A stretch of DNA of 64,000 nucleotides from the NCBI GenBank assembly GCA_001184205.1, contig LBMP01000001.1, positions 1 through 64,000 on the forward strand, written 5' to 3'. Source of the stretch: Desulfocarbo indianensis. GTDB lineage: Bacteria > Desulfobacterota > Desulfarculia > Desulfarculales > Desulfarculaceae. The translations under genes and the position numbers were made by a program. The notes beneath the pieces are model-generated. The model saw nothing but the letters and a program-made list of their open reading frames with translations, had not been told where the DNA came from and ran no database searches. Shown one piece after another: positions 1,448-14,231 of this stretch (the stretch's first letter is position 1; each line of letters begins with the position of its first letter).

Positions 1448-3229
1448 ATGAATTCAGACATTAAAAACGAAGAGACCAAGCGCGGCTGCCCGGATCAAAA
1501 AGAGATGGAGCGCGAACTCTCGGATTATATCTCCAAGAAATACGGTGAAAAAACCCGCTTCGTCACCCCGCTGCTTAACCCGCAGCAAGAGTTGGACGGC
1601 GACGGCGAGGAGGGCGGCGTGTGGTCCCGCATCAATTTCGATATGAATCCCGAGGAGTTGGTCGCCTACCTCGACCAGTACATAATCTGCCAGGACGAGG
1701 CCAAGGCCGTCTTGGCCACCAAGATATGCACCCATTTCAACCGTGCGAAATACCTCTCCAAACGCCAGACCGGCGATCCGGCGGACGGCGTGGGGCTCAT
1801 CAAGAACAACGTACTCATGATCGGGCCCACCGGGGTGGGCAAGACCTACATGGTGAAGCTCATCGCCGCCAAGCTGGGCGTGCCCTTTGTCAAGGGCGAC
1901 GCCACAAAGTTCAGTGAAACCGGCTATGTGGGCGGCGACGTGGAGGACCTGATCCGGGATTTGGTGCATGAGGCGGGCGACGACATCGAGCTGGCCCAGT
2001 ACGGCATCGTCTACGTGGACGAGATAGACAAGATCGCCTCCTCCCACAACCTGGTGGGACCCGATGTCTCCCGCACCGGCGTGCAGCGGGCGCTTCTGAA
2101 ACCCATGGAGGAAACCGAGGTGGACCTCAAGGTCCCCCACGACCCCATCAGCCAGATCCAGGCCATAGAGCGCTACCGCAAGACCGGCAAGCGGGAGCGC
2201 CAGACCGTCAACACCCGCCACATCCTTTTTATAATGAGCGGCGCTTTCGGCGATCTGCCCGAGATCATCAAGCGGCGGCTGAACCGCAAGAGCATGGGCT
2301 TCACCTCCGACGTGCGGGCCGACCTGGCCGACCAGGCCTACTTCCAAGAGCTGACCGCCCAGGATTTGGTGGAATACGGCTTTGAAAACGAGTTCGTGGG
2401 GCGCATCCCGGTGCAAGTGGTGCTGGAGGAGCTGACCGCCGAGGATCTCTACCACATTCTGCGCAACCCCAACAACCCGGTGATTATCAGCAAGAAAAGG
2501 GATTTCGCGGCCTACGGCATCGAGCTGCATTTCGAGGACGCCGCCCTCAAGGACCTGGCCGACCGGGCCGCCCGCCTGAAAACCGGGGCCCGCGCCCTGG
2601 TCTCGGTGGTGGAAAAGGCGCTCATGCCCTTTGAGAAGCACCTGCCCAGCACCGATATCAAACGCCTTTTGGTGACCAGCGAATTGGTGGCCGATCCCAA
2701 GGCCGTGCTGGCCCAGCTTCTGGGCGACCCGGAAAACCCCCGCTTGCAGGAGCGCCTGGACGAGGCGGCCAAGGACGAGCGCATGGATTTGCTCAAGATG
2801 GTGGCCAAGCGCGAGCCCCTCTACCGCGGCCGCCTGCGCGGGCCCCTGACCCCGGCCCGCATGGACCTCATCGCCGACGAGTATTACCGGGTGGGCATGA
2901 CCCTGGGCGCGGCCTTTGAGATGGTGCTGGGACGCCTGGCAGAGGTGCACGAGTTCGAGGAGAACTTCTACCAGCGCTACAGCCTCAAGATCAGCTTCAC
3001 CGAGGCCGCCGAGGTGGCCATCCTGGCCGGAGCCGCGGCCGAGGGCGTAGCGGTGGCCACCTTCCTGCAACGGCTCAGCCAGGTGCTGGAGCCCGGCTTG
3101 CGCCTGGCCCGCGATCGCACCGGCCGCGAGGAGTTCGTGCTGCCCGAAAAGGCGGCGCTGGATACCGACGCCTATCTGCGCGAGGTGTTCCAGGAGCATT
3201 TCCAGTCCACCTTGAGCCGCGAGCTGTAA
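1448..3229 (+). CDS. ClpX-like AAA+ ATPase without zinc domain and with a C-terminal extension
   Basis: A protein of 593 residues. Residues about 60-400 align by motif with ClpX: Walker A GPTGVGKT (about 127-134), GYVGGDVEDLI in the place of the GYVG pore loop, Walker B IVYVDEIDKI (about 197), EFVGRIPV for the ClpX EFIGRLPV block, and GARAL for the sensor 2 arginine. SMGF occupies the place of the IGF loop that docks ClpX on ClpP. The N-terminal four-cysteine zinc domain of ClpX is absent and is replaced by an acidic leader. After about residue 410 there are some 180 residues, largely helical in character, that ClpX does not have. The gene is monocistronic, with a leader hairpin upstream and a terminator downstream. 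By family knowledge it should be an ATP-driven unfoldase; ClpP docking and substrates are unknown. I give no gene symbol because it is not the orthologue of housekeeping clpX. Confidence 0.85.
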   Translation: MNSDIKNEETKRGCPDQKEMERELSDYISKKYGEKTRFVTPLLNPQQELDGDGEEGGVWSRINFDMNPEELVAYLDQYIICQDEAKAVLATKICTHFNRAKYLSKRQTGDPADGVGLIKNNVLMIGPTGVGKTYMVKLIAAKLGVPFVKGDATKFSETGYVGGDVEDLIRDLVHEAGDDIELAQYGIVYVDEIDKIASSHNLVGPDVSRTGVQRALLKPMEETEVDLKVPHDPISQIQAIERYRKTGKRERQTVNTRHILFIMSGAFGDLPEIIKRRLNRKSMGFTSDVRADLADQAYFQELTAQDLVEYGFENEFVGRIPVQVVLEELTAEDLYHILRNPNNPVIISKKRDFAAYGIELHFEDAALKDLADRAARLKTGARALVSVVEKALMPFEKHLPSTDIKRLLVTSELVADPKAVLAQLLGDPENPRLQERLDEAAKDERMDLLKMVAKREPLYRGRLRGPLTPARMDLIADEYYRVGMTLGAAFEMVLGRLAEVHEFEENFYQRYSLKISFTEAAEVAILAGAAAEGVAVATFLQRLSQVLEPGLRLARDRTGREEFVLPEKAALDTDAYLREVFQEHFQSTLSREL

Positions 3230-3238
3230 TTTCAAGTT

Positions 3239-3283
3239 GTGGGGGAGCCCGTTTTGTGACACAAAAAGGCTCCCCCACGCTTT
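3239..3283 (+). terminator. Rho-independent terminator of the ClpX-like gene
   Basis: Perfect 11-bp arms GTGGGGGAGCC (3239-3249) and GGCTCCCCCAC (3268-3278) are followed by GCTTTT. It lies 10 bp after the stop codon. Confidence 0.8.
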
Positions 3284-3412
3284 TCCCAAGCCGCTGGGGG
3301 CCGATTGCCTCATCGCGGTGTATAAATGGCCATCCCCCGCCTTTGCAGTTAGGGCATCGGGCCGCCGCCCCAAGGGGTGGGCCGCTGGCCGGGCCCAGGG
3401 AAGAGACGCCAA

Positions 3413-4600
3413 ATGATCGGAATCAGCAAACTTTACTGTGGCACCGTGGAGCCCTCCGACGCCCTGCGCTACGGCCGCCACTCCAAGGAATTGCCCAGCC
3501 ATCTCCTGCAATTCGCCGAGGACAAGAAGCCGGTGGTGGTCTGGAACATGACCAAGGCCTGCAACCTGAAATGCCTGCATTGCTATGCCCAGGCCACGGC
3601 CGGGCCCAGCGCTGACGAGCTTTCCACGGCCGAGGCCAAGGTCATGATCGACGACCTGGCCCGATTCGGGGCCCCGGTGCTCCTTTTCAGCGGCGGCGAA
3701 CCCCTGATGCGCCAGGACCTGCCCGAGCTGGCGCGTTACGCCGTGTCCAAGGGCATGCGGGCGGTGATCAGCACCAACGGCACCCTGATCACCCGCGACA
3801 AGGCCAAGGAACTCAAGGACATAGGCCTATCCTACGTGGGGGTGAGTCTGGACGGCCTGCCCGAGGTGCACGACAAGTTCCGGGGCGTGGCCGGCGCCTT
3901 TGACGACGCCATGGCCGGCATCCGCAACAGCATGGAGGCGGGCCTCAAGGTGGGCCTGCGCTTCACGGTTTACGCCAAGAACGCGCCCGAGGTGCCCGGC
4001 GTGTTCGATCTCCTGGAAAAGGAGGGCATCCCCCGGGTCTGTTTCTATCACCTGGTCTACGCCGGCCGGGGCAGCCGGCTAATGGACGAGGACCTCTCCC
4101 ACGAAGGCACCCGCCGGCTCCTGGACCTCATCATGGACCGCAGCAAGGCGCTCTTTGACAAGGGCCAGACCCCCGAGGTGCTTACCGTGGACAACCACGC
4201 GGACGGGCCGTTCGTATACTTGCGCATGCTGCGCGAGGACCCGGAGCGGGCCAAGGAGGTGCTGGAGCTGCTCAACTGGAACGAGGGCAACTCCTCGGGC
4301 CGGGGCATCGGCTGCGTGAGCTGGGACGGCAGCGTGCACCCGGACCAGTTCTGGCGTCACCTCACGGTGGATAACATTCGCAAGCGGCCTTTCAGCGAGA
4401 TATGGACCGACCTGAGCCACCCCATCCTGGGCAAGCTCAAGGACAAGCGGCCTTATCTAAAGGGGCGCTGCGCCCAGTGCAAGTGGCTGAACATCTGCGG
4501 CGGCAATTTCCGGGTGCGCGCCGAAGCCGCCACCGGCGACCTCTGGGCCCCGGACCCGGCCTGCTACCTGACGGATGAGGAGATAGGGCTCACCGCCTGA
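3413..4600 (+). CDS. ahbC: 12,18-didecarboxysiroheme deacetylase (radical SAM, alternative heme pathway)
   Basis: Catalyses removal of the two acetate side chains of 12,18-didecarboxysiroheme to give Fe-coproporphyrin III, in the siroheme-dependent heme pathway of sulfate reducers and archaea. The 395-residue protein begins MIGISKLYCGTVEPSDALRY, a stretch I recognise as typical of AhbC. It has the radical SAM motif CNLKCLHC (about residues 50-57), the GGEP motif, and a C-terminal cysteine-rich region (GCVSWDG, CAQCKWLNICGG, DPACYL) for auxiliary Fe-S clusters. I chose the ATG at 3413; an ATG 36 bp upstream would add 12 unrelated residues. A second, diverged copy of its last 35 codons occurs at 5781-5894. 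hemB, a heme-pathway gene, lies downstream at 8832, and the two were probably adjacent before foreign genes entered. Confidence 0.93.
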   Translation: MIGISKLYCGTVEPSDALRYGRHSKELPSHLLQFAEDKKPVVVWNMTKACNLKCLHCYAQATAGPSADELSTAEAKVMIDDLARFGAPVLLFSGGEPLMRQDLPELARYAVSKGMRAVISTNGTLITRDKAKELKDIGLSYVGVSLDGLPEVHDKFRGVAGAFDDAMAGIRNSMEAGLKVGLRFTVYAKNAPEVPGVFDLLEKEGIPRVCFYHLVYAGRGSRLMDEDLSHEGTRRLLDLIMDRSKALFDKGQTPEVLTVDNHADGPFVYLRMLREDPERAKEVLELLNWNEGNSSGRGIGCVSWDGSVHPDQFWRHLTVDNIRKRPFSEIWTDLSHPILGKLKDKRPYLKGRCAQCKWLNICGGNFRVRAEAATGDLWAPDPACYLTDEEIGLTA

Positions 4601-4758
4601 GAAACTGACCGGGGGGTATCATCATGATTTCCCGAAGGCGTCTATATCAGGGGCGCAAGAGGTCGCTCAGGCATTTAATTTCCTCGTTTTTGGGACCCAA
4701 TCCATAAAGGCCTTTCTGGAGTAGCGCGCCTGAGGCTTCCGGCAATCAAAACAGATCG

Positions 4759-5463
4759 CTACTCACCGAGTATCCTGACAGCAACTTGCTCGTAAGCATA
4801 AGCAATGTATTCATACGTTATATTATTGTCGCAAACGAACTCTTTAAAGGCGCGATATTCATGATGCTGCCAATTGGGGTAATTGAAATATTCATCAAAA
4901 ACAATGATAGTTCCATTAACGATCCTGTTTCCTAATTGAATGAAAATATCTTTTGCCGAAGAATACACGTCAGAGTCTACATGCATGAATGCGATATTGC
5001 CTTCGTAATTATTCCCCCATAAAGGAATGGTATCGGAAAACCAACCGGGATACAATGTTACATTACTTGGCATTTTGGGGAGCTTTCCTTTTATATCAAA
5101 ACGTTCCTTCTTGATATTCGCGCCCGACCAATCCGATGGCAATCCCTCGAAAGAATCAAAGCCATGAACATGTATGTCCCCTACTTGATTGGCAATAAAC
5201 TTTAAACTATCGCCCTTGTAAACACCAAGCTCCAAGTAATGCCCTTTTATCTTAACCTGAGCCAAAGCATACTCCAATATGTCTTGGCGCATTTGCATGC
5301 CCAAGGCTTTCGGCATATTTTTCTGTATATAGTCTGCTGATTCCTTCAATGCTCTTCGCGACATTTCCTGCATCGGGTGAAGCGAGACCAATTTCACGGT
5401 ATTGGCTACCAAATGCAGGACCCTATAGACCATTTTTCTAATTAAAAAGCTCCTTAAAACCAT
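4759..5463 (-). CDS. TylF/MycF-type class I SAM-dependent methyltransferase
   Basis: A protein of 234 residues with a Rossmann-type SAM site LELGVYKGDSL (about residue 77), HGFDSFEGLP, an acidic metal/SAM patch HVDSDVYSS, and GTIIVFDEYFNYPNW. This motif order is characteristic of the TylF/MycF macrocin O-methyltransferase family, which also has many members in surface polysaccharide and glycolipid modification. The substrate is unknown. The gene is clearly more AT-rich than its surroundings, has no sugar-biosynthesis neighbours, and points against ahbC. It lies between ahbC and the duplicated ahbC tail, so it is probably a horizontally acquired orphan. Confidence 0.8.
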   Translation of the reverse strand: MVLRSFLIRKMVYRVLHLVANTVKLVSLHPMQEMSRRALKESADYIQKNMPKALGMQMRQDILEYALAQVKIKGHYLELGVYKGDSLKFIANQVGDIHVHGFDSFEGLPSDWSGANIKKERFDIKGKLPKMPSNVTLYPGWFSDTIPLWGNNYEGNIAFMHVDSDVYSSAKDIFIQLGNRIVNGTIIVFDEYFNYPNWQHHEYRAFKEFVCDNNITYEYIAYAYEQVAVRILGE

Positions 5464-5780
5464 TTATAACTTCCAATTAAAATGATAGATCACATGTGGC
5501 TTTTAAGCCGCACCCATTTCCATCACCGGCTAAAATAAAGATTTCAGGCTCAGGCGGGTACTTGGTAAATTCTTCCGAGGTGCTGTTGGCCAGGGAGTCG
5601 CGGGGCCGACGGCTTTTGTAACATTAATGTCAATATTCAGTGTTTTGGTGGGCGGCGTCTAAGGAAAAAGAAACCGTGGGCGCTCAAACACCCATCCCGC
5701 GGCATCCGCTTATCAAGCCCCAGACGGGCCACCATGCGTGTTAAAGGGTGGTTCTCTTGCTCCACCTACGCCGTGGCAGG

Positions 5781-5894
5781 TGGCTGAACGTCTGCGGCGG
5801 CAATTTCCGGATGCGCGCCGAAGCCGCCACCGGCGACCTCTGGGCCTCGGCCCCCGCCTGTTGCCTGACGGATGAGGAGATAGGGATTAAATGA
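5781..5894 (+). pseudogene. Diverged copy of the 3' end of ahbC
   Basis: By my hand alignment, 5781-5885 matches 4484-4588 of ahbC with 7 mismatches in 105 bp. It still reads in frame (WLNVCGGNFR... then LTDEEIGIK and a stop at 5892-5894). The upstream 15 bp show weaker similarity with a one-base gap, and then homology ends. There is no start and no radical SAM core, so it cannot be functional. Some mismatches are silent and some are not, so it looks like a fragment from a related genome rather than a recent copy. Confidence 0.88.
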
Positions 5895-5903
5895 TTTCAT
5901 TGT

Positions 5904-6479
5904 CTAATCTAATTTAACCGATTTCAGGAACCTCTTCTCGATGAGTTCAGCAACCTTTTCCTGTATTGTTGAAAGTAAAAAATGCGGTTTGATATCGTAA
6001 ACCAACTGTGCCAAGCGCTCCACTGATAGTAATTGATAACTTAGCGCAGCATTTCTATCCATATATATTATCGTGGTTATCAATTCTAAATCTTTTGCAT
6101 ATAGCCCACCAAATCCATTAATAATAGAGTCGATACTTGCGCGACACTTTTCCAAAAAATCATTTGATCTCTCAATAAGTTCCTTAGATTTGTCAGCAGG
6201 TATTATATTATATCCCCCCTTGCCTGATTCAACATAATTTACAGAAACTCCTCCTATATGCTCTGTAAAGTCAAGGTCGTCTAAGACCTCTGCGCAAAAC
6301 GGTCCATAAGTATACAGCCTATATTCATATCCCAGATCAACTCCTCCTATTTCTTGAATTAGATATATTAATTTCTCCAATGCTGTCTTACCAAACTGCG
6401 GAGATTTACCTAAAAGTGCTTCTGAAAGTTCTGATATGAGGCCATACTTATACCAAGGCATTTCTATCTTTTGGTTCAT
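5904..6479 (-). CDS. Small protein partner of the HD phosphohydrolase (YwgA-like, tentative)
   Basis: A protein of 191 residues in AT-rich DNA. It overlaps the upstream HD gene by 4 bp (ATGA), so the two are almost certainly co-translated. The segment FGKTALEKLIYLIQEIGG followed by YEYRLYTYGPF resembles the N-terminal winged-helix-like part of YwgA and of Panacea/DUF4065-type proteins. In Bacillus, as I recall, ywgA lies next to ywfO, an HD phosphohydrolase; the arrangement here is the same. The function of YwgA is not known to me. The stop lies only 10 bp from the duplicated ahbC tail. A defence or regulatory role with the HD enzyme is inference. Confidence 0.6.
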   Translation of the reverse strand: MNQKIEMPWYKYGLISELSEALLGKSPQFGKTALEKLIYLIQEIGGVDLGYEYRLYTYGPFCAEVLDDLDFTEHIGGVSVNYVESGKGGYNIIPADKSKELIERSNDFLEKCRASIDSIINGFGGLYAKDLELITTIIYMDRNAALSYQLLSVERLAQLVYDIKPHFLLSTIQEKVAELIEKRFLKSVKLD

Positions 6480-7813
6480 GAGAGTCCTCCCTCTTCCTGC
6501 CGAAGGTCCTCTATTTTTCTCCTTACTTCCAGCTTTTTTTCATTGGTTGAATACAGTCTTATTTGGCGGACGGTTGGCAATCCCTTAACCACGCTTGACA
6601 TCTTAGATAGTGGCTTAGCTTTTTCATGCCTACTACCCATGTCATGTATAATATGAATTTCTTCTTCTTTGCTGAATTTATACCAACTTTTATCTGCCTT
6701 ATCGGTAAACTTAATTTGGCTGCCGAGACTTTCAATTATTGTGTTGGCTAATTCCAGATCATTGGGACTTAGCGCTTCTGGAGTTTGATGTACCCACCTA
6801 TAATGGTTTCTATTCCTTATAATTTCTCCATGTTCCCCACCACCGCCTTCTGCAAGTTTGCCTAGTACTTTCCAATCATCCCACCTTAAGTATTGATCCA
6901 AATTTTCAACACTAGTTGGCGGAGGGAAGCAATCCTTTTGTTCTAAATCTGTATTTCTCTGTTCTTCCGCAAGCATATATTTTATAGCCTGTTCTATATG
7001 ATGATCATAAGCTCTGCGAGTCCGCTGGTAATAAACTTGTGTAAACATCATGTAACGTGCGATTATCAATCCCTCTGCTGCATGCTCCCCCCCATTCTCA
7101 ACTGCAATGATAAAACCTTCACCCTCTGGCTGTCTTCCGATCGTCATAGTCACCAATAGTCGGTTCAAATCATATCTGCCATATTCAACTCCGATATGAT
7201 GTGCGTCTCTTAATAAATAATCTGCCCTATCGGCATCAAGTTGGCCCGATAAAAGATCACACCACAAAAGGCTCCTACCAATGGCTGGATTTCTTGTTAT
7301 AAAATTGGCTATATCATCAGATTTAAATTCTCTGTTTTGATTTAAAGGATGGTTTTGGATAACATCTCGCAACAAGAGACTAACTATTGCGCTTGAATAA
7401 TCTTCGTGATTATATGCTTTGCCGGTGTTGTGATTTATTGGCATCAGGTTCTCAGATGCATGTGAAAAGGGGGGGTGTCCTACATCATGCAGCAGAGAGG
7501 CAAGCCTTAGTTTGCATAAATCGCGTATAATGCCTCCTTCATCATAATTCATGTTTTGCTCTAAATATTGCTTACGCTTTGAGACGATTCCATTGAACAT
7601 TTCGGTGGCAACGTGCATTGCCCCTAAGGAATGCTCAAAGCGAGTGTGCTCCGCACCAGGATATACCATATTGGTCCAAGCTAATTGCTTTATTCTTCTT
7701 AGTCTCTGAAAAGCGGGATGATCAACTATCTCCCGCTCCCAGTCATTCAGCTTTACAAAACCATATATGGGATCCCTGAACTCATGCTTTCTTGAGTCTG
7801 CGAAGTTAAGCAC
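6476..7813 (-). CDS. HD-domain phosphohydrolase (dGTPase/YwfO-like)
   Basis: About 445 residues. The core carries HTRFEHSLGAMHVA, LLHDVGHPPFSHASE and DADRADYLLRDAHH, the H...HD...D metal-binding set of SAMHD1/dGTPase-like HD enzymes (about residues 50-225). Conserved family features at the N terminus are DPIYGFV and FQRLRRIKQLA. By family it should hydrolyse a nucleotide, possibly a dNTP; the substrate cannot be read from the sequence. I prefer the GTG at 7813, preceded by AGGGGGG; an ATG at 7837 would add 8 residues, and one at 7879 lies on the predicted -10 box and is unlikely. The DNA is AT-rich, unlike the flanks. The gene is first in a two-gene operon with the 5904-6479 gene. Confidence 0.85.
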   Translation of the reverse strand: MLNFADSRKHEFRDPIYGFVKLNDWEREIVDHPAFQRLRRIKQLAWTNMVYPGAEHTRFEHSLGAMHVATEMFNGIVSKRKQYLEQNMNYDEGGIIRDLCKLRLASLLHDVGHPPFSHASENLMPINHNTGKAYNHEDYSSAIVSLLLRDVIQNHPLNQNREFKSDDIANFITRNPAIGRSLLWCDLLSGQLDADRADYLLRDAHHIGVEYGRYDLNRLLVTMTIGRQPEGEGFIIAVENGGEHAAEGLIIARYMMFTQVYYQRTRRAYDHHIEQAIKYMLAEEQRNTDLEQKDCFPPPTSVENLDQYLRWDDWKVLGKLAEGGGGEHGEIIRNRNHYRWVHQTPEALSPNDLELANTIIESLGSQIKFTDKADKSWYKFSKEEEIHIIHDMGSRHEKAKPLSKMSSVVKGLPTVRQIRLYSTNEKKLEVRRKIEDLRQEEGGLS

Positions 7814-7876
7814 AATCCCCCCTGGACGCCCCTGCATTATATACAATCTACAGTAGCAGACACCTCCAATATGGAC

Positions 7877-7904
7877 CATATATTGTTTCCGACATCTTTG
7901 TCAA
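7877..7904 (-). promoter_or_regulatory. Promoter of the HD/YwgA-like operon
   Basis: TTGACA (7899-7904) is separated by 16 bp from TATATG (7877-7882) on the minus strand. The start site would fall near 7870, which supports the GTG at 7813 or the ATG at 7837 as start codon. Confidence 0.55.
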
Positions 7905-7950
7905 CTAGTAAGCTATACATATGTATATCAACATTATTATTTCCATATCG

Positions 7951-8079
7951 CCTCTCCCATTGACCCCACCCCAGCCTTGCACTGTCACTGAAACATCCCA
8001 TTTGCTACCCCTTGAGCGGAGGCTTTCCCATGGTTCGCATGCGGCGTCTGCGCCGCGCCGAAGCCATGCACGACATGTT
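7951..8079 (+). pseudogene. Diverged copy of the hemB leader and first codons
   Basis: This stretch matches 8754-8894 upstream of and inside hemB: CCTCTCCCATTGACCCCA, ACTGAAACATCCC, then GGTTCG(C/T)ATGCGGCG and GCCGCG. It differs at many positions and lacks about 11 bp that include the hemB start codon. Reading stops at a TAA near 8089. It is a non-functional remnant that includes the noncoding leader, so it came from a genome with the same hemB upstream region. Confidence 0.82.
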
Positions 8080-8089
8080 CTCAAACTAA

Positions 8090-8422
8090 TTACTTGGTAA
8101 TCGCTTCCTCCACCTTCTCCGCCACCCAGGCGTTCAAGCTCTTATTCTCCTGCTTTGCCGCCGCCGCCGCCGCGCGGTGCAGCTCGGGCGTAAGCCGCAA
8201 ATTGAAGCGCCCGGAAAAGGGCTTTTCCGGCTCCCTGCCCATCTCAGCGCAGAACTCCAGATAATCCTCAACCGAATCGGCCAAGGCCTCCTTAAGCTCG
8301 TCAACGGAGCGCCCTTCGAACGTCACCACGTCATTGATGTTCACCACCCGGCCATGGAACAGGTCCGCCTCCGGGTCATAGGAGAACAAACCGACGTAGT
8401 TCTTGTAGCGTAAGTTATTCAT
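8090..8422 (-). CDS. hicB: HicB-family antitoxin
   Basis: A protein of 110 residues. The N-terminal half, YVGLFSYDPEADLFHGRVV to SVDELKEALADSVEDYLEFC, is the degraded RNase H-like fold of HicB antitoxins. The C-terminal part, FNLRLTPELHRAAAAAAKQ with SLNAWVAEKVEEAI, is a ribbon-helix-helix DNA-binding domain. It neutralises HicA and should repress the operon. Its ATG overlaps the hicA stop (ATGA). The stop lies 10 bp from the hemB remnant. Confidence 0.9.
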   Translation of the reverse strand: MNNLRYKNYVGLFSYDPEADLFHGRVVNINDVVTFEGRSVDELKEALADSVEDYLEFCAEMGREPEKPFSGRFNLRLTPELHRAAAAAAKQENKSLNAWVAEKVEEAITK

Positions 8423-8697
8423 TTTCTTGTCTCCGGCGGTGGGATTTGAACCCGCGACCTGATCAAAAACTCGCGCACCGACTCCACCGCGCCCTTGTTT
8501 GTCGTCGGCTGCGGATGCGGCCGATGAAAGACAGCCGCCACGCCATTCAACATGACCCGGACCCGCGATCCCCGGCCTTCGCTTAGCTCCGCGCCCAAAC
8601 CGCGCAAAAGCGATTCAATATCCTTCCAGGCTATGCCCGCTTTGGTCGGTTCATGAAAAATTTCCTCCCAGATGCGGCGATGTTTGCTGTTCACCAT
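8419..8697 (-). CDS. hicA: HicA-family toxin with an altered C terminus
   Basis: Toxin of a type II system; HicA proteins are small double-stranded-RNA-binding-fold mRNA interferases. Of 92 residues, about 1-78 look like HicA, including [29 protein letters not shown] with the catalytic histidine region (FHRPH) and VESVREFL. The last 13 residues, [12 protein letters not shown] and neighbours, are read from DNA that resembles the 3' end of a tRNA (8427-8462), so the native C terminus has been replaced. The order hicA-hicB and the 4-bp overlap are usual. Activity of this variant is uncertain. Confidence 0.85.
8427..8462 (-). repeat. tRNA 3'-tail-like sequence, possible attachment-site remnant
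   Basis: On the minus strand, GGTCGCGGGTTCAAATCCCA followed by CCGCCGGAGACA resembles the T arm and 3' acceptor strand of a tRNA, nearest to tRNA-Leu-type tails by eye. One T-stem pair is mismatched and no 5' half exists. Such tails are the usual targets of tyrosine integrases. There is no integrase in the window. Confidence 0.55.
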
Positions 8698-8715
8698 GCC
8701 CCCCAGGTTTTAATC

Positions 8716-8738
8716 ATGGTACTATAGCTTGGTACCAT
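8716..8738. promoter_or_regulatory. Inverted repeat, probable HicB operator
   Basis: ATGGTAC (8716-8722) and GTACCAT (8732-8738) are separated by 9 bp, just upstream of hicA. TATAGT lies between the arms in the hicA direction. Ribbon-helix-helix HicB proteins usually bind palindromes here. The site also lies about 95 bp upstream of the hemB start codon. Confidence 0.5.
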
Positions 8739-8831
8739 ATGCAACCCCGATCTCCTCTCCCATTGACCCCATCCCAGCCCTGCGGTATTACTGAAACATC
8801 CCGTTTGCGACCCCCCCACCGGAGGCAGCCC

Positions 8832-9806
8832 ATGAGCTTTCCCCTGGTTCGTATGCGGCGCCTGCGCCGCACTCCCGCCCTGCGCGACATGGTGGCCGAG
8901 ACCACCCTCGGCGTGAACGACCTCATCTACCCCATGTTCGTGGTGGAGGGCCAAAACCTGGTGCAGCCGGTGCCCTCCATGCCGGGCATCGACCGCTTCA
9001 GCGTGGACAAACTGGTGGAGGAATGCCGGGCCGTGGCCGGCCTGGGCATCCCGGCCATCATCCTCTTCGGTATTCCCGATAAAAAAGACCCCCTGGGCCG
9101 GGGGGCCTACGACCCCAAGGGCATCATCCCCCGCGCGGTGAGCGCGGTGAAAAAGGCGTTGCCCGAACTGGTGGTGATCTGCGACGTGTGCATGTGCGAA
9201 TACACCGATCACGGCCACTGCGGCATCCTGGATAACCAAGATGTACACAATGACGCCACCATCGAGCTCTTGGCCAAGGCCTCCCTGGCCTACGTCAAGG
9301 CCGGGGCCGACCTGGTGGCGCCCTCGGACATGATGGACGGCCGGGTTCTCGAGATACGCGAGACCCTGGACGAGGCGGGTTTCGACCACATCCCCATCAT
9401 GTCCTACGCGGCCAAATACGCCTCGGCCTTTTACGGCCCCTTCCGCGACGCCGCCGAAAGCACCCCCGCCTTCGGCGACCGCCGCGCCTATCAGATGGAC
9501 CCGCGCAACGTGCGGGAAGCCCTGCGCGAGTGCGAGCTGGACGTGATCGAGGGCGCGGACATGCTCATGGTCAAACCGGCCCTGCCCTACCTGGACGTCA
9601 TCGCCAAGGTGCGCGAGGAATTCGATCTCCCCCTGGCCGCCTACAACGTCTCCGGCGAATACGCCATGCTCAAAGCCGCCGCGGCCAACGGCTGGCTGGA
9701 TTACGACCGGGTCATGCTGGAAACCCTCACCGGCATCAAACGCGCCGGCGCAGACCTGATCCTCACCTATCATGCCAAAGAAGCGGCGGCGCTGTTGAAT
9801 AAGTAG
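8832..9806 (+). CDS. hemB: Delta-aminolevulinic acid dehydratase (porphobilinogen synthase)
   Basis: Condenses two 5-aminolevulinate molecules to porphobilinogen, an early step of all tetrapyrrole synthesis. The 324-residue protein starts [13 protein letters not shown] after a GGAGG site; an upstream ATG at 8739 would add residues read from the leader. The zinc site [14 protein letters not shown] is present, as are the two active-site lysine regions: SYAAKYAS and [11 protein letters not shown]. With ahbC it belongs to heme/siroheme synthesis. Its leader is copied, in diverged form, at 7951-8079. Confidence 0.96.
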
Positions 9807-10012: not shown

Positions 10013-11035
10013 ATGAAGCTTGCTTTAGCTGGGCTGCCGACCTCGGGCAAGAGCACCTTGATGCGTGCCTTGGCTGGGCGGCGCATCGCGGTGGGCAAGG
10101 GCTCCAGCGACGCCAGCCAGGCGCTGTTATCGGTGCCCGACGAGCGGGTGGACAAGCTTTCGGCCATGTACCTGCCCCAGAAGACCATCCACGCCCAGGT
10201 GACCTTTGTTGATCCGGCCCCGCCGGTGGCCAAGGCCGACGACCCCACCACCAAGTTGCCTCCGGAGCTGCGCCAGGCCGACGGCCTGGTGGAGGTGGTG
10301 CGCAATTTCGACGGCGGCCTGGGCGCGCCCGACCCAATCGGCGATCATCAGTCCTTTGGCGAAGAGCTGATCCTCAACGATCTCATCACGGTGGAGCGCC
10401 GCTTGGAGCGCATCGCCGAGGAGCGCCGCCGCGGCCGCGAAATCGATCAGGAGGAGATAAGCCTCTTGGAGCAATGCAAGGAGCAGCTCAACGCGGAAAA
10501 GCCCTTGCGCCTTTTGGCGGAGGTGGCGGGCCATGCCAAGCTGCGGGGCTTCGGCCTTTTGACGGCCAAGCCGGTGGTGGTGGTGGCCAATAACGAGGAG
10601 GACGACGACCAGCCGCCGGATTTGGGGCCGGAGGTGAAACCGGTGGTGGCGCGGGCGGCCATCGAGGCGGAGTTGGCCGAGCTTTCCGAGGAGGAGCGGG
10701 CCGAGTTCATGGCCGATCTGGGGCTGACCCAAAGCGCCCTGGACCGGGTCATCGCGGCGGGCTACCAGGCCCTGGACGCCATCAGCTTTTTCACGGTGGG
10801 CGAGGACGAGGTGCGCGCCTGGACCACCCGGCGGGGCTCCCTGGCCCCGCAGGCCGCCGGGGTGATCCACTCGGACATGGAGAAGGGCTTCATCCGGGCC
10901 GAGGTGATGCGCTATCAGGACCTCATCGAGCTGGGCTCCGAGGCGGCCGTGAAAAAGGCGGGGCTTTTTAAGCTGGCGGGCAAGGACTACGTGGTGCAGG
11001 ACGGCGACATCTTCCACGTAAGGTTCAACGTGTAG
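10013..11035 (+). CDS. Divergent YchF/DUF933-type P-loop NTPase
   Basis: A protein of 340 residues with the P-loop LPTSGKSTL near the start and a C-terminal DUF933/TGS-like domain (AISFFTVGEDEVRAW, MEKGFIRAEVMRYQDL, KDYVVQDGDIFHVRFNV) typical of YchF/Ola1. The middle has a long charged coiled-coil as in YchF. It departs from YchF at key sites. The usual NPNVGKST is LPTSGKST. The switch II region DIAGLVKGAS is replaced by DPAPPVAKAD, so the DxxG glycine is missing. It is probably a paralogue with altered or lost nucleotide switching, and I do not call it ychF. It is followed by tRNA-Met. Confidence 0.8.
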   Translation: MKLALAGLPTSGKSTLMRALAGRRIAVGKGSSDASQALLSVPDERVDKLSAMYLPQKTIHAQVTFVDPAPPVAKADDPTTKLPPELRQADGLVEVVRNFDGGLGAPDPIGDHQSFGEELILNDLITVERRLERIAEERRRGREIDQEEISLLEQCKEQLNAEKPLRLLAEVAGHAKLRGFGLLTAKPVVVVANNEEDDDQPPDLGPEVKPVVARAAIEAELAELSEEERAEFMADLGLTQSALDRVIAAGYQALDAISFFTVGEDEVRAWTTRRGSLAPQAAGVIHSDMEKGFIRAEVMRYQDLIELGSEAAVKKAGLFKLAGKDYVVQDGDIFHVRFNV

Positions 11036-11221: not shown

Positions 11222-11254
11222 AAAACCCCGAGCCTTGCAGGCTTCGGGGTTTTT
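11222..11254 (+). terminator. Terminator after tRNA-Met
   Basis: AAAACCCCGA-GCC pairs with GGC-TTCGGGGTTTT around a short loop. It is symmetrical, so it may also end transcripts of the oppositely oriented efflux operon. Confidence 0.8.
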
Positions 11255-11349
11255 CGTTGGCCGGGCCCACCATGTTGTTCAGCGGGGCCCATGCCCCGCT
11301 CATTCCACCAGCCGGCCCCAGGTTGCTCCGCGCCCGCCGGCGGCTGCGC

Positions 11350-12855
11350 TCAATTCACTTGCGCCTCGCCGGCCTCGATCTGCCAGCCTCCCCCCAGGGC
11401 CTTGTAAAGCGCTATCAGGTTGGTGACCACCGCCCCGTTGCTGAGCGCCAAGGCGTCCTGGGTGGCGTAAAGCGACCGCTGGGCCTGCAGCACGTTGAGA
11501 AAGTCGGTCTGCCCCTCGGCGTAAAGCAGGGAGGAGATATCCAGGGCCTTGCGGTTGGCGGCCACCGCCGCGGCCAGCTCCCGCCGGTGCTTTTGCTCGG
11601 CGGTGGAAGCCACCAGGGCGTCCTCCACCTCCCGCAGGGAGTTCAGCACCGTCTGGCGATAGGCCAGCAGGGTTTCTTCGGTGACGGCTTCTTGCAGCTC
11701 GATGTTGGCCCTTATCTTGCCGCTGGCGAAGATCGGCCAGCTCAATGACGGGCCGATGGACCAGGAGCGGCCCGCCCCGGCGAACCAGGATTGGAAGGCG
11801 CTGGACTGGTAGCCGCCGGAGCCGGTGAGGTAGAAGCGGGGAAAGAGATCGGCGGTGGCCACCCCTATCTTGGCGGTGGCCGCGTGCAGCCGGGCCTCGG
11901 CCTGGCGGATGTCGGGCCGCCGGCGCAAGAGGTCCGAGGGAACCCCCGCCGGCACCGCGGGCGGCGTTTGGGGAAGGGCGGCGGCGGGACTCAGCTCGGC
12001 GATGAGCGCCGCCGGCTCCAGGCCCAGGAGCAGGCCGAGGCCGTGAATGGTCTGGCGGGCCGAGGCCTCCAACGGCGGTATCTGGGCGGCGGTGGTGGAA
12101 GCCTGGGCCTCGGCGTTGGCGGCGTCCAGACCGCTGACAAAGCCGGCCTCCTGTTTTTGCCTGGTCAGCGAGGCGGTGCGCCGCTGGGCCGCCAGGTTGG
12201 TTCGGGCGATGGCTATGCGCCGCTGCAGGATGCGCAGCTCCAGGTAGTTCAGCGCGACCTCGGCGGTCAGGCTCACCATCACCCCCCGCCTGGCCTCCTC
12301 GGCGGCGCGCAGTTCGGCGTCGGCCGCCTCCAGGCCGCGGCGCAGGCCCCCGAAGATGTCCAGCTCCCAACTGGCGTCAAAGCCCGCCTGGTACAGATCG
12401 CTCACCGAGGAGTCGGAGCCGCCGTACCTGCTGGCAGTGGAGGGCGAGCGGCTGCGCTGATAGGAACCGGATACGCCCAATTCCGGCCCCAGGCCGCCGG
12501 CGGCGATGCCGCGGGAGGCGCGGGCCTGGCGCAGCCGGCTGCGGGCCTGCCTGAGGTCCAGGTTGGACTCCAGCGCCCGCGTCTCCAGCGAGGTCAGGAT
12601 GGGATCGTTGAACACGGTCCACCACTGCGCCAGATCGCGGTCCGCCAGGGAGGCCGCCTTGGCCGCGGGGCCGGCGGTCCACTTTTCCGGCAGGTCGGGT
12701 CGCGGGGCCTGGTAGTCCGGGCCCACCAGACAACCGGCGGCCAGCAGGGCCAGGCAGGCGAGAAGCGACATGACCGCCCGCCGGGGCCAGGGGGAGCGGC
12801 TCCCCTGATGACGGCGGTCTTGCTTGCATTCATGGGGCTTGCTTGTCATTTTCAT
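11350..12855 (-). CDS. NodT-family outer membrane efflux lipoprotein (TolC-like)
   Basis: The outer-membrane channel of a tripartite pump, 501 residues. A lipoprotein signal ends in the lipobox LLAAGC, followed by LVGPDYQAPRPDLPEKW, the usual NodT/OprM start. Two TolC-type repeats follow, including ELDIFGGLRRGLEAADAE, RRRPDIRQAEARLHAAT, LSWPIFASGKIRANIE and LYAEGQTDFLNVLQAQRSLY. The ATG at 12855 overlaps the macB stop by one base (TGATG), showing translational coupling. It is last in an operon with adaptor, ATPase and permease. Confidence 0.93.
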   Translation of the reverse strand: MKMTSKPHECKQDRRHQGSRSPWPRRAVMSLLACLALLAAGCLVGPDYQAPRPDLPEKWTAGPAAKAASLADRDLAQWWTVFNDPILTSLETRALESNLDLRQARSRLRQARASRGIAAGGLGPELGVSGSYQRSRSPSTASRYGGSDSSVSDLYQAGFDASWELDIFGGLRRGLEAADAELRAAEEARRGVMVSLTAEVALNYLELRILQRRIAIARTNLAAQRRTASLTRQKQEAGFVSGLDAANAEAQASTTAAQIPPLEASARQTIHGLGLLLGLEPAALIAELSPAAALPQTPPAVPAGVPSDLLRRRPDIRQAEARLHAATAKIGVATADLFPRFYLTGSGGYQSSAFQSWFAGAGRSWSIGPSLSWPIFASGKIRANIELQEAVTEETLLAYRQTVLNSLREVEDALVASTAEQKHRRELAAAVAANRKALDISSLLYAEGQTDFLNVLQAQRSLYATQDALALSNGAVVTNLIALYKALGGGWQIEAGEAQVN

Positions 12856-14231
12856 CACTCGTAGCGCAGGGCTTCGATGGGGTCCAAACGCGAGGCCCGC
12901 CAGGCCGGGTAGAACCCGAAGACGATGCCCACGCTGGCCGAGACCGCCACCGAGGCGATTATGGCGGCCGGCGAGGTGGCCACCGGCCAGCGTAAAACCG
13001 CCTGCACCAGCTGCGAGCCGCCGTGGCCCAGCAAGATGCCCATGGCCCCGCCCGCCAGGCAGAGCACCACGGCCTCCACCAGGAACTGGCGCAGGATGTC
13101 GCGGCCGCGCGCGCCCACGGCCATGCGCAGGCCGATCTCCCGGGTGCGTTCCGTCACCGAAACCAGCATGATGTTCATGATCCCCACCCCGCCCACCACC
13201 AGGGAGATCATGGCCACGCTGAGCAGGAGGTTGGTCATGAGCTGGGTGGTGGAAGTCAAGGTGTCGGTCATCTCGGTCATGTCGCGGACGCTGAAATCCG
13301 AGGGCTCGCCGGGCCGGATGCGGTGGCGCTCGCGCAGCAGGTCGGTGATCTGGGCGATGGCCTCCTGCACCTGGCCGGCGTTCCTGGCCGCCGCCATGAT
13401 GCGGTCCACGTTCTCGAAGCGCACCGGCATGGGGTTGTCGGCTATCTGCGCCGCCGATTTCTCGGGGTAGAGGCTCGCCTGGCCGGGGTAAAGCTGGCTC
13501 AGGGTGTTTATGGAGCCGCTGGTGTCCTGGCTGCTGGAGCTGCTGGCGCTCTGGTTGGTGCTTTGCAGGGTCGATCCGGTTACCCGGTTTTTTATGGTGG
13601 TCCAGGGAGCCAGCAGGATGTCGTCCTGATCCATGCCCATCATGTTGGCCCCCTTGCCGGCCAGCACCCCCACCACCTTGAAGCTGACGTTCTTGAGCCT
13701 GATTTCCTTGCCCACGGGGGATTCGCCCTGGAAAAGCTCGCGCACCAGGGTCTGGCCCAACACGCAGACCTTGTTGGCGGCCAGCACGTCGCGCTCCGTG
13801 AAGACCTCCCCCTCGGCCATGGTCCAGTTGGCCACCTCCAGGTAGGCCGGGGTGGTGCCCGTCATCCAGAAGGGCACCCAGTTGCGGTTGCCGTAGACCA
13901 CCTGGGTGCGGGCCCTCACCTGGGGCGCGGCCCCGCGCAGGGCCGGGCATTGTTTGATCATGGCCTCGCAATCAGCGGGGCTCAGGGTGGTCACGCTGCC
14001 CGCCCCGAAGCTGATGCCCCCGCTGGAGGCGGTGCCCGGCACCACCATCAGCACGTTGGCCCCCATGCTGGAAATGGCGTCCTGCAGGGCCTGGGAGGAG
14101 CCGGCGCCGATCTCCATCATGGCGATCACCGCGGCCACCCCGATCACGATTCCCAGGGTGGTGAGCAGGGCGCGCATGGGGTTCTTGCGCAGCGCCTTGC
14201 TGGCGGTGAGCAGAATGCGGAAGGCGTTCAT
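12855..14231 (-). CDS. MacB-type ABC transporter permease
   Basis: Inner-membrane mechanotransmission subunit of a tripartite ABC efflux pump. The 458-residue protein has an N-terminal transmembrane helix (RALLTTLGIVIGVAAVIAMM), a large MacB_PCD periplasmic domain with the segment QTLVRELFQGESPVGKEIRL, and three C-terminal helices with the FtsX motifs GIMNIMLVSVTERTREIGLR and GFYPAWRASRLDPIEALRYE. A serine-rich linker lies near residue 225. The ATPase is on a separate gene and overlaps it by 4 bp. Drugs, lipids or peptides are all possible substrates. Confidence 0.93.
   Translation of the reverse strand: MNAFRILLTASKALRKNPMRALLTTLGIVIGVAAVIAMMEIGAGSSQALQDAISSMGANVLMVVPGTASSGGISFGAGSVTTLSPADCEAMIKQCPALRGAAPQVRARTQVVYGNRNWVPFWMTGTTPAYLEVANWTMAEGEVFTERDVLAANKVCVLGQTLVRELFQGESPVGKEIRLKNVSFKVVGVLAGKGANMMGMDQDDILLAPWTTIKNRVTGSTLQSTNQSASSSSSQDTSGSINTLSQLYPGQASLYPEKSAAQIADNPMPVRFENVDRIMAAARNAGQVQEAIAQITDLLRERHRIRPGEPSDFSVRDMTEMTDTLTSTTQLMTNLLLSVAMISLVVGGVGIMNIMLVSVTERTREIGLRMAVGARGRDILRQFLVEAVVLCLAGGAMGILLGHGGSQLVQAVLRWPVATSPAAIIASVAVSASVGIVFGFYPAWRASRLDPIEALRYE

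Follow-up and report, generated by a model that had tools for sequence, protein, structure and literature searches.

We analyzed the interval between ahbC and hemB in a stretch of 64,000 nucleotides from Desulfocarbo indianensis (family Desulfarculaceae; contig LBMP01000001.1, positions 1 to 64,000), hereafter the window, whose numbering is used for this locus; the whole locus lies on one 1.54-Mb contig. Comparison within the family showed that the ahbC-hemB junction is, judged by gene-family matches, a defence hotspot flanked by core genes, since its cargo is varied and mostly of defence type and its flanking junctions are stable. In the window, the slot additionally holds partial copies of the ahbC tail and of the hemB leader, which directly flank a gene pair encoding an HD-domain phosphohydrolase and a partner of 191 amino acids (aa; together, the HD pair).

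Variable cargo between stable flanks

The family set comprised 20 genomes including that of the window, one genome per species, and a match to the locus was obtained in 19 of them. Both ahbC and hemB were found on the same contig and strand in 9 of the 20 (the window genome, G002, G003, G004, G007, G008, G009, G011 and G012) and split between contigs in G010, G013 and G016. Only one of the two genes was found in G001, G005, G014 and G019, and the match was weak or absent in G006, G015, G017 and G018. The gene order clpX-like gene, ahbC, hemB, ychF is kept in the family and the cargo at the ahbC-hemB junction varies. With the exception of G011 (19.5 kb), the spanned intervals are about 1.2-4.2 kb long, and their guanine-plus-cytosine (GC) content was 0.44-0.61 in comparison with 0.65-0.69 in ahbC and hemB (eight intervals measured). 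As control junctions, measured from match ends, we used clpX-like/ahbC, of about 87-192 bp in 12 of the 14 loci with 1 kb or more of upstream sequence, the two exceptions being G001 and G016, without the clpX-like gene upstream of ahbC, and hemB/ychF, of 9-410 bp in all 12 loci with enough sequence. Variability was restricted to the slot, with stable outer junctions to its left and right. In the aligned upstream regions, the conserved sequence of the relatives resumes by eye at the -35 element of the hemB promoter.

Matches to defence, candidate-defence, toxin-antitoxin or restriction-modification families were observed in 7 of the 9 fully spanned intervals and in all three split loci (G010, G013 and G016); among the seven, the HD match of the window is weak, the gene of G004 is broken and the DUF5131 plus TcmP genes are candidate systems only (PADLOC). 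G002 carries a BglII-family restriction endonuclease (8.5e-20) with an MT-A70 methylase (1.7e-32), G003 a TIR effector match (2.2e-11), and G007, G008 and G012 a DUF5131 gene with a TcmP partner (TIGR04474 in G007 and G008; the TcmP of G012 is 52% identical to that of G007). The PADLOC candidate systems PDC-M30/M41 list such genes (tested: both G007 genes, the G008 TcmP and the G004 fusion). In this fusion (locus L037, native positions 2558-3853), the start of tcmP runs in frame into an integron integrase gene (TIGR02249, 490 bits). In the split loci, HTH and capP-like (capH/capP-like) genes adjoin ahbC in G010, where a tcmP stretch with a stop adjoins hemB, Abi_alpha adjoins ahbC in G013, and a TIR match and DUF5131 lie near hemB in G016. 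The family comparison, in which relatives with other cargo were found, lends strong support to the repeated landing of cargo at this site that was put forward in a preliminary description of this DNA.

Some loci weigh against a defence role or against an intact slot. The cargo of G009, a 198-aa AT-rich gene, gave no defence match in Pfam, PADLOC or NCBIfam, nor did that of G011, the PrkA/SpoVR genes (three open reading frames, ORFs; Pfam only), and the gene beside ahbC in G014 encodes a GGDEF protein. In G013 and G016, no hemB was present in the sequence read 3' of ahbC, and the pair may be separated there. A 76-aa ORF in G005 and a 111-aa ORF in G019 gave no Pfam match.

Comparison of near relatives revealed clean swaps. 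G007 and G008 are 92% identical in ahbC, 89% in DUF5131 and 93% in hemB, and a hexapeptide-transferase-like gene is also homologous; their TcmP genes were unlinked by tblastn at 1e-3, though both are TcmP by NCBIfam. G012 and G013 have common blocks on both sides of DUF5131 plus TcmP in the former and of Abi_alpha in the latter. Between G003 and G009 (ahbC 93% and hemB 90% identical), the entire cargo differs, with TIR in one and the uncharacterised 198-aa gene in the other. These clean swaps suggest that the cargo, which would sit between the last ahbC codons and the -35 of the hemB promoter, is exchanged mainly via homologous recombination in the flanking genes.

Outside the family, hemB was downstream of ahbC on the same strand in 50 of the 75 named loci, and within 349 bp in 42 of these 50. 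At class level, 15 of the 32 non-family ahbC loci were read; within the available sequence hemB was downstream in nine, in eight of them within about 335 bp. Because this spacing is mostly short, a close ahbC-hemB pair is likely to be the ancestral state. The adjacency in relatives that the preliminary description had anticipated holds in these loci and fails in G020, the only other genome sampled from this order, which lacks hemB in the 2.3 kb available 3' of ahbC. The eight larger gaps among the named loci are in L057, L071, L074, L080, L090, L094, L103 and L105. Tested ORFs in L074, L090, L094 and L105 were heme-pathway, HDOD or mannosyltransferase-like, and the gap of L071 contains no ORF of 90 aa. 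In L080 (labelled Desulfovibrio), an EcoRV-family restriction endonuclease and a D12 methylase lie between ahbC and hemB (11253-12960), which makes this a defence insertion that arose independently at this junction. In L103 (labelled Actinomycetota), the two genes are separated by an AbiEii toxin gene and a borderline match to AbiEi (5248-6721).

Two further observations concern the sequences of the relatives. The ahbC of G016 (L161) has a single in-frame TGA and is otherwise intact, pointing to a sequencing error or a pseudogene. Upstream of the differing cargo next to hemB in G002, G007, G008 and G010, a common TGTATGG motif lies on the minus strand, probably part of an extended -10 promoter. 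Written as CCATACA, the motif was present in 4 of 11 cargo upstream regions (shuffle mean 0.31, maximum 3 in 2000 shuffles); it was picked post hoc and reads as an extended -10, and we do not claim it as a shared cargo promoter motif.

Two diverged remnants in the window interval

Reading rightwards, the window has ahbC, the TylF-like gene, the ahbC tail copy, the 191-aa gene, the HD gene, the hemB leader copy, hicB, hicA and hemB, with all five cargo genes on the minus strand (Table 1). The genes of the HD pair overlap by 4 bases, and ten bases lead from the stop of the ahbC remnant (5894) to the stop end of the 191-aa gene (5904). This order, the direct flanking of the HD pair by the copies and the ten-base spacing agree with what had been described. 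GC content was 0.65 in both ahbC and hemB, 0.58 in hicA as in hicB, 0.40 in the TylF-like gene and 0.36 and 0.42 in the two genes of the HD pair, so that two of the three slots of the interval are AT-rich, as had been noted.

Table 1. Features of the ahbC-hemB locus in the window.
Feature	Position	Strand	Remarks
clpX-like AAA ATPase gene	1448..3229	+	Pfam AAA_2; conserved left neighbour of ahbC
ahbC (12,18-didecarboxysiroheme deacetylase)	3413..4600	+	left core flank; TIGR04546, 726 bits
TylF-like methyltransferase gene	4759..5463	-	outer left cargo; Pfam TylF, 1.2e-14; GC 0.40
ahbC-tail remnant copy	5776..5894	+	last base ends an in-frame stop; 110 bp 92.7% identical to 4479-4588
191-aa partner gene of the HD gene	5904..6479	-	weak DarG C-terminal match
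HD-domain phosphohydrolase gene, dNTPase/SAMHD1-like	6476..7879	-	Pfam HD, 1.9e-8; true start may be downstream of 7879
hemB promoter/leader and first codons, remnant copy	7947..8077	+	142 columns 76% identical to 8750-8891
hicB antitoxin gene	8090..8422	-	Pfam HicB, 2.3e-23
hicA toxin gene	8419..8697	-	Pfam HicA_toxin, 3.7e-10
hemB promoter, likely	8763..8791	+	TTGACC - 17 bp - TATTAC, by eye in aligned upstream regions
hemB (porphobilinogen synthase)	8832..9806	+	right core flank; Pfam ALAD, 1e-152
ychF	10013..11035	+	Pfam YchF-GTPase_C; conserved right neighbour of hemB

Both partial copies, previously placed at 5781-5894 and 7951-8079, proved real by blastn, with ends that were off by a few bases, and their divergence from the intact genes was confirmed. 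For ahbC, 4479-4588 aligned with 5776-5885 without gaps and with 8 mismatches (E 2.7e-41). For hemB, the upstream region and head aligned with the copy at E 5e-25; a single 11-bp gap in the copy deletes the start codon and the -10 is also lost, and the promoter-like TTGACC-17-TATTAC of the resident gene is intact. The repeats are nested (A-A'-B'-B), an order that rules out a tandem duplication (A-B-A-B).

Three bases common to the ahbC remnant and the resident ahbC (sites 4481, 4490 and 4525) were absent from all 14 relatives, among them G001 of the same genus. At site 4482, the remnant has the base common to all 14 relatives and the resident alone deviates; five of the eight differences from the resident are unique to the remnant. 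Similarly, the hemB remnant and the resident hemB share two bases found in none of 12 relatives, at codons 7 and 14 only the resident deviates, the remnant having kept the common bases, and at several further sites the base of the remnant is also found in some relatives. In the trees, each remnant was sister to the resident gene (support 98.5/100 for ahbC and 88.6/91 for hemB), so that nothing points to a donor from beyond the lineage of the resident; the arrival of the HD pair as one block with a donor's gene ends, suggested earlier, is not supported over the alternative set out below. The trees and site patterns together rule out a donor in another sampled genus. Judged from these sequences, the remnants are lineage-specific, neither coming from another sampled genus nor being copies of the present resident genes. 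A very close unsampled donor may have supplied them; the contig of G001, the nearest relative, stops inside ahbC. Branch lengths were asymmetric for ahbC (resident 0.009, remnant 0.094) and were 0.074 and 0.132, respectively, for hemB; these unequal lengths, from short sequences, would hint at two separate events. As a separate observation, the last 18 codons of ahbC match G005 at 94% of third positions in comparison with 66% gene-wide (best of 13 comparisons); this is at most suggestive of homogenisation of the tail, a reading that we did not retain.

Assembly of the interval

Most likely, the unit in the middle (ahbC tail, HD pair, hemB leader) occupied the slot before the outer cargo and has gene ends of its own, a reading supported by the way in which the remnants adjoin the HD pair, much like cargo adjoins ahbC and hemB in relatives. 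The sister grouping of remnants and resident genes, the asymmetric ahbC branches and the common bases kept by the remnants also speak for it. We consider it probable, with some reserve, that two one-sided additions followed, TylF joining later at the ahbC edge and HicAB at the hemB edge. Each incoming fragment would have been anchored by homology to ahbC or hemB at one end and joined by illegitimate recombination at the other. The incoming end would complete the resident gene, and the old end would stay as a remnant beside the older cargo and decay afterwards, the HD slot being displaced inward. The direct repeats could also permit renewed deletion of the outer cargo.

Remnants of an older end, beside presumably older cargo, are kept on both sides in the window, on the ahbC side in G008 and, with an assembly caveat, on the hemB side in G010. 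In G008, an ahbC tail piece of about 95 bp, not present in G007, lies between the hexapeptide-like gene and DUF5131; its matching columns number 70 with its own ahbC, 70 with G005 and 72 with G014. In G010, there are two copies of the hemB leader (101 bp, 99%), each on its own contig and each behind a different cargo. Since these genomes carry one remnant each, one-sided additions explain them better than the insertion of a block from a close relative, in which an ahbC tail, the HD pair and a hemB head would have entered together between TylF and HicAB with illegitimate joins at both ends. A single block with donor gene ends, close to what the preliminary description had favoured, would account for both remnants by one event, for the nested order and for the bases that both remnants keep and the resident genes have lost. 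It requires two illegitimate ends within a small interval and the correct orientation by chance; the search for HD relatives in the order revealed no donor, and the remnants are unequal in identity (92.7% versus 76%) and in resident branch length (0.009 versus 0.074), a hint of two events from short sequences. We regard block insertion as rather unlikely.

A local partial duplication was also considered, in which repair or replication slippage copied the resident gene ends without foreign DNA and cargo parted them later. The grouping of the remnants with the resident genes and the uniquely shared bases (three in ahbC, two in hemB) fit this explanation, which leaves unexplained both the position of the copies at the edges of the HD pair and the comparable arrangements of G008 and G010. 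The remnant in G008 is, moreover, no closer to its own ahbC than to that of G005 or G014, and local duplication appears improbable. More improbable still is site-specific integration, with the ahbC 3' end or the hemB 5' end as attachment site, or an integron array. Gene 3' ends are common attachment sites, and the G004 interval contains an integron integrase. This integrase is joined to a truncated tcmP and looks like an insertion into cargo, none of the five genes in the window interval matches an integrase or transposase family, the repeats are non-identical and one is a gene head, and a strict scan of 11 intervals for attC-like sites, which would miss divergent ones, was empty. Further on in the G004 interval, an inverted repeat resembling attC and the end of a DUF5131 gene are seemingly present by eye only; the former was not recovered by the strict scan, nor the latter by tblastn at 1e-3.

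Several points weigh against the two one-sided additions that we prefer. They require two separate events where a block would take a single one, the remnants measure only 110 and 131 bp, and the second leader of G010 could reflect strain mixture in a draft genome. An ahbC-HD pair-hemB intermediate was found in no family relative, and among the 21 genomes of the order none other than the window genome has the HD pair between ahbC and hemB, the arrangement that had been proposed for a relative.

The HD pair

The HD protein is, by sequence homology, a relative of deoxynucleoside triphosphate triphosphohydrolases (dNTPases) and SAMHD1, with PDB matches to 2hek (3e-41), 2o6i (3e-35; this entry is presumably EF1143) and SAMHD1 (about 1e-21). 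The likeness to these HD-domain dNTPases extends over residues 33-336 in the alignment with 2o6i; the window gene differs in being paired with a partner gene, and its activity is predicted. At E<=1e-20, the only HD relatives in the 21 order genomes besides its own were in G010 and G019, on other contigs and at 31-35% identity. We inspected 13 HD loci, 11 from a search of 395 genomes of the phylum at 1e-40 and two from the order search, and the partner gene was directly downstream of the HD gene in 12, the exception being L134. Plasmid and phage records also contained HD relatives (39 and 11 records, respectively), each with less than 60% identity. Of the relatives found, the one nearest to the HD pair is in L138 (1486-3395; 56% and 42%), flanked by DUF6079 and DNA methylase genes; the pair of L143 is flanked by NOV_C and DUF1156 genes, and we take all four to be defence-island families.

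The 191-aa partner matched DarG of PADLOC in its C-terminal part (2.6e-7) and Pfam SocA_Panacea at 0.029, with no NCBIfam DarG match up to 0.01. The partners of all four tested relatives matched the C-terminal half of DarG (NF048014), far under the curated cut-off. The partner family resembles the antitoxin of DarTG in this weak, below-cut-off match and differs from it in that the partner has no macrodomain, no DarT adjoins it and its neighbour encodes an HD protein. In Priestia, too, an HD gene is accompanied by a homologous partner (hhalign 97.6%), and we take these two genes to be the ywfO-ywgA pair of Bacillus. For the 191-aa protein, a PDB search gave nothing up to E 1, the viral contigs searched contained no relative, and single-sequence structure prediction was not usable (mean predicted local distance difference test score 36). 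From the conserved adjacency and the weak homology, we hypothesize that the HD protein would be a dNTPase controlled by an antitoxin-like partner. Literature listings on ywfO/ywgA, on HD plus DarG and on DUF5131/TcmP returned nothing relevant.

The slot resembles the hotspots cDHS1 and cDHS2 of Pseudomonas aeruginosa which, in excerpts of their description, have fixed core genes around variable, largely defence, lower-GC cargo that is not bound to one mobile-element class, and whose authors suggest transfer via homologous recombination in the flanks (PMC10250203). It differs in size (1.2-4.2 kb, with one slot of 19 kb, against a median of 26 kb given there for cDHS1), in spanning genera of one family and in flank remnants that trace additions (PMC10250203). 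For the additions, excerpts on the type VI secretion effector-immunity arrays of Vibrio cholerae propose homology-facilitated illegitimate recombination, likewise with one homologous anchor, one illegitimate end and an old part displaced and kept beside the new module (PMC5361080). The anchor described there is the upstream region of the module, and other strains are the source of the extra alleles (PMC5361080). In the window, housekeeping genes next to the slot would serve as anchors, and the ahbC and hemB remnants are ends of core genes that closely resemble those of the resident. Those extra alleles do not cluster together and the window remnants do, a further point against our preferred reading (PMC5361080). 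By analogy, two mechanisms proposed elsewhere would suffice, homologous replacement in the flanks for the swaps and, more rarely, homology-facilitated illegitimate recombination for the additions.

By title, the literature listings contained no report of a Desulfarculaceae hotspot, and those on ahbC/hemB/ahbD nothing relevant. Defence hotspots are known elsewhere, and the ahbC-hemB slot is one with unusually clear traces of assembly. Excerpts of the P. aeruginosa study name the building of hotspots bounded by core genes as future work (PMC10250203). Tentatively, and from sequence comparison, such slots may grow from both sides without mobile elements, each module being added at the outer edge, anchored in a core gene and removable again through the repeats, and the HD pair may be an uncharacterised defence or toxin-antitoxin module in which a SAMHD1-like dNTPase is held by a DarG-C/Panacea-like antitoxin. 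Overall, the traces of addition, the clean swaps and the stable control junctions of this slot make testable a recombination model for the filling of core-gene-bounded defence hotspots without integrases. The slot also provides candidate defence genes, namely the HD pair, DUF5131 plus TcmP, the 198-aa gene of G009 and the TIR-matching proteins of G003 and G016.

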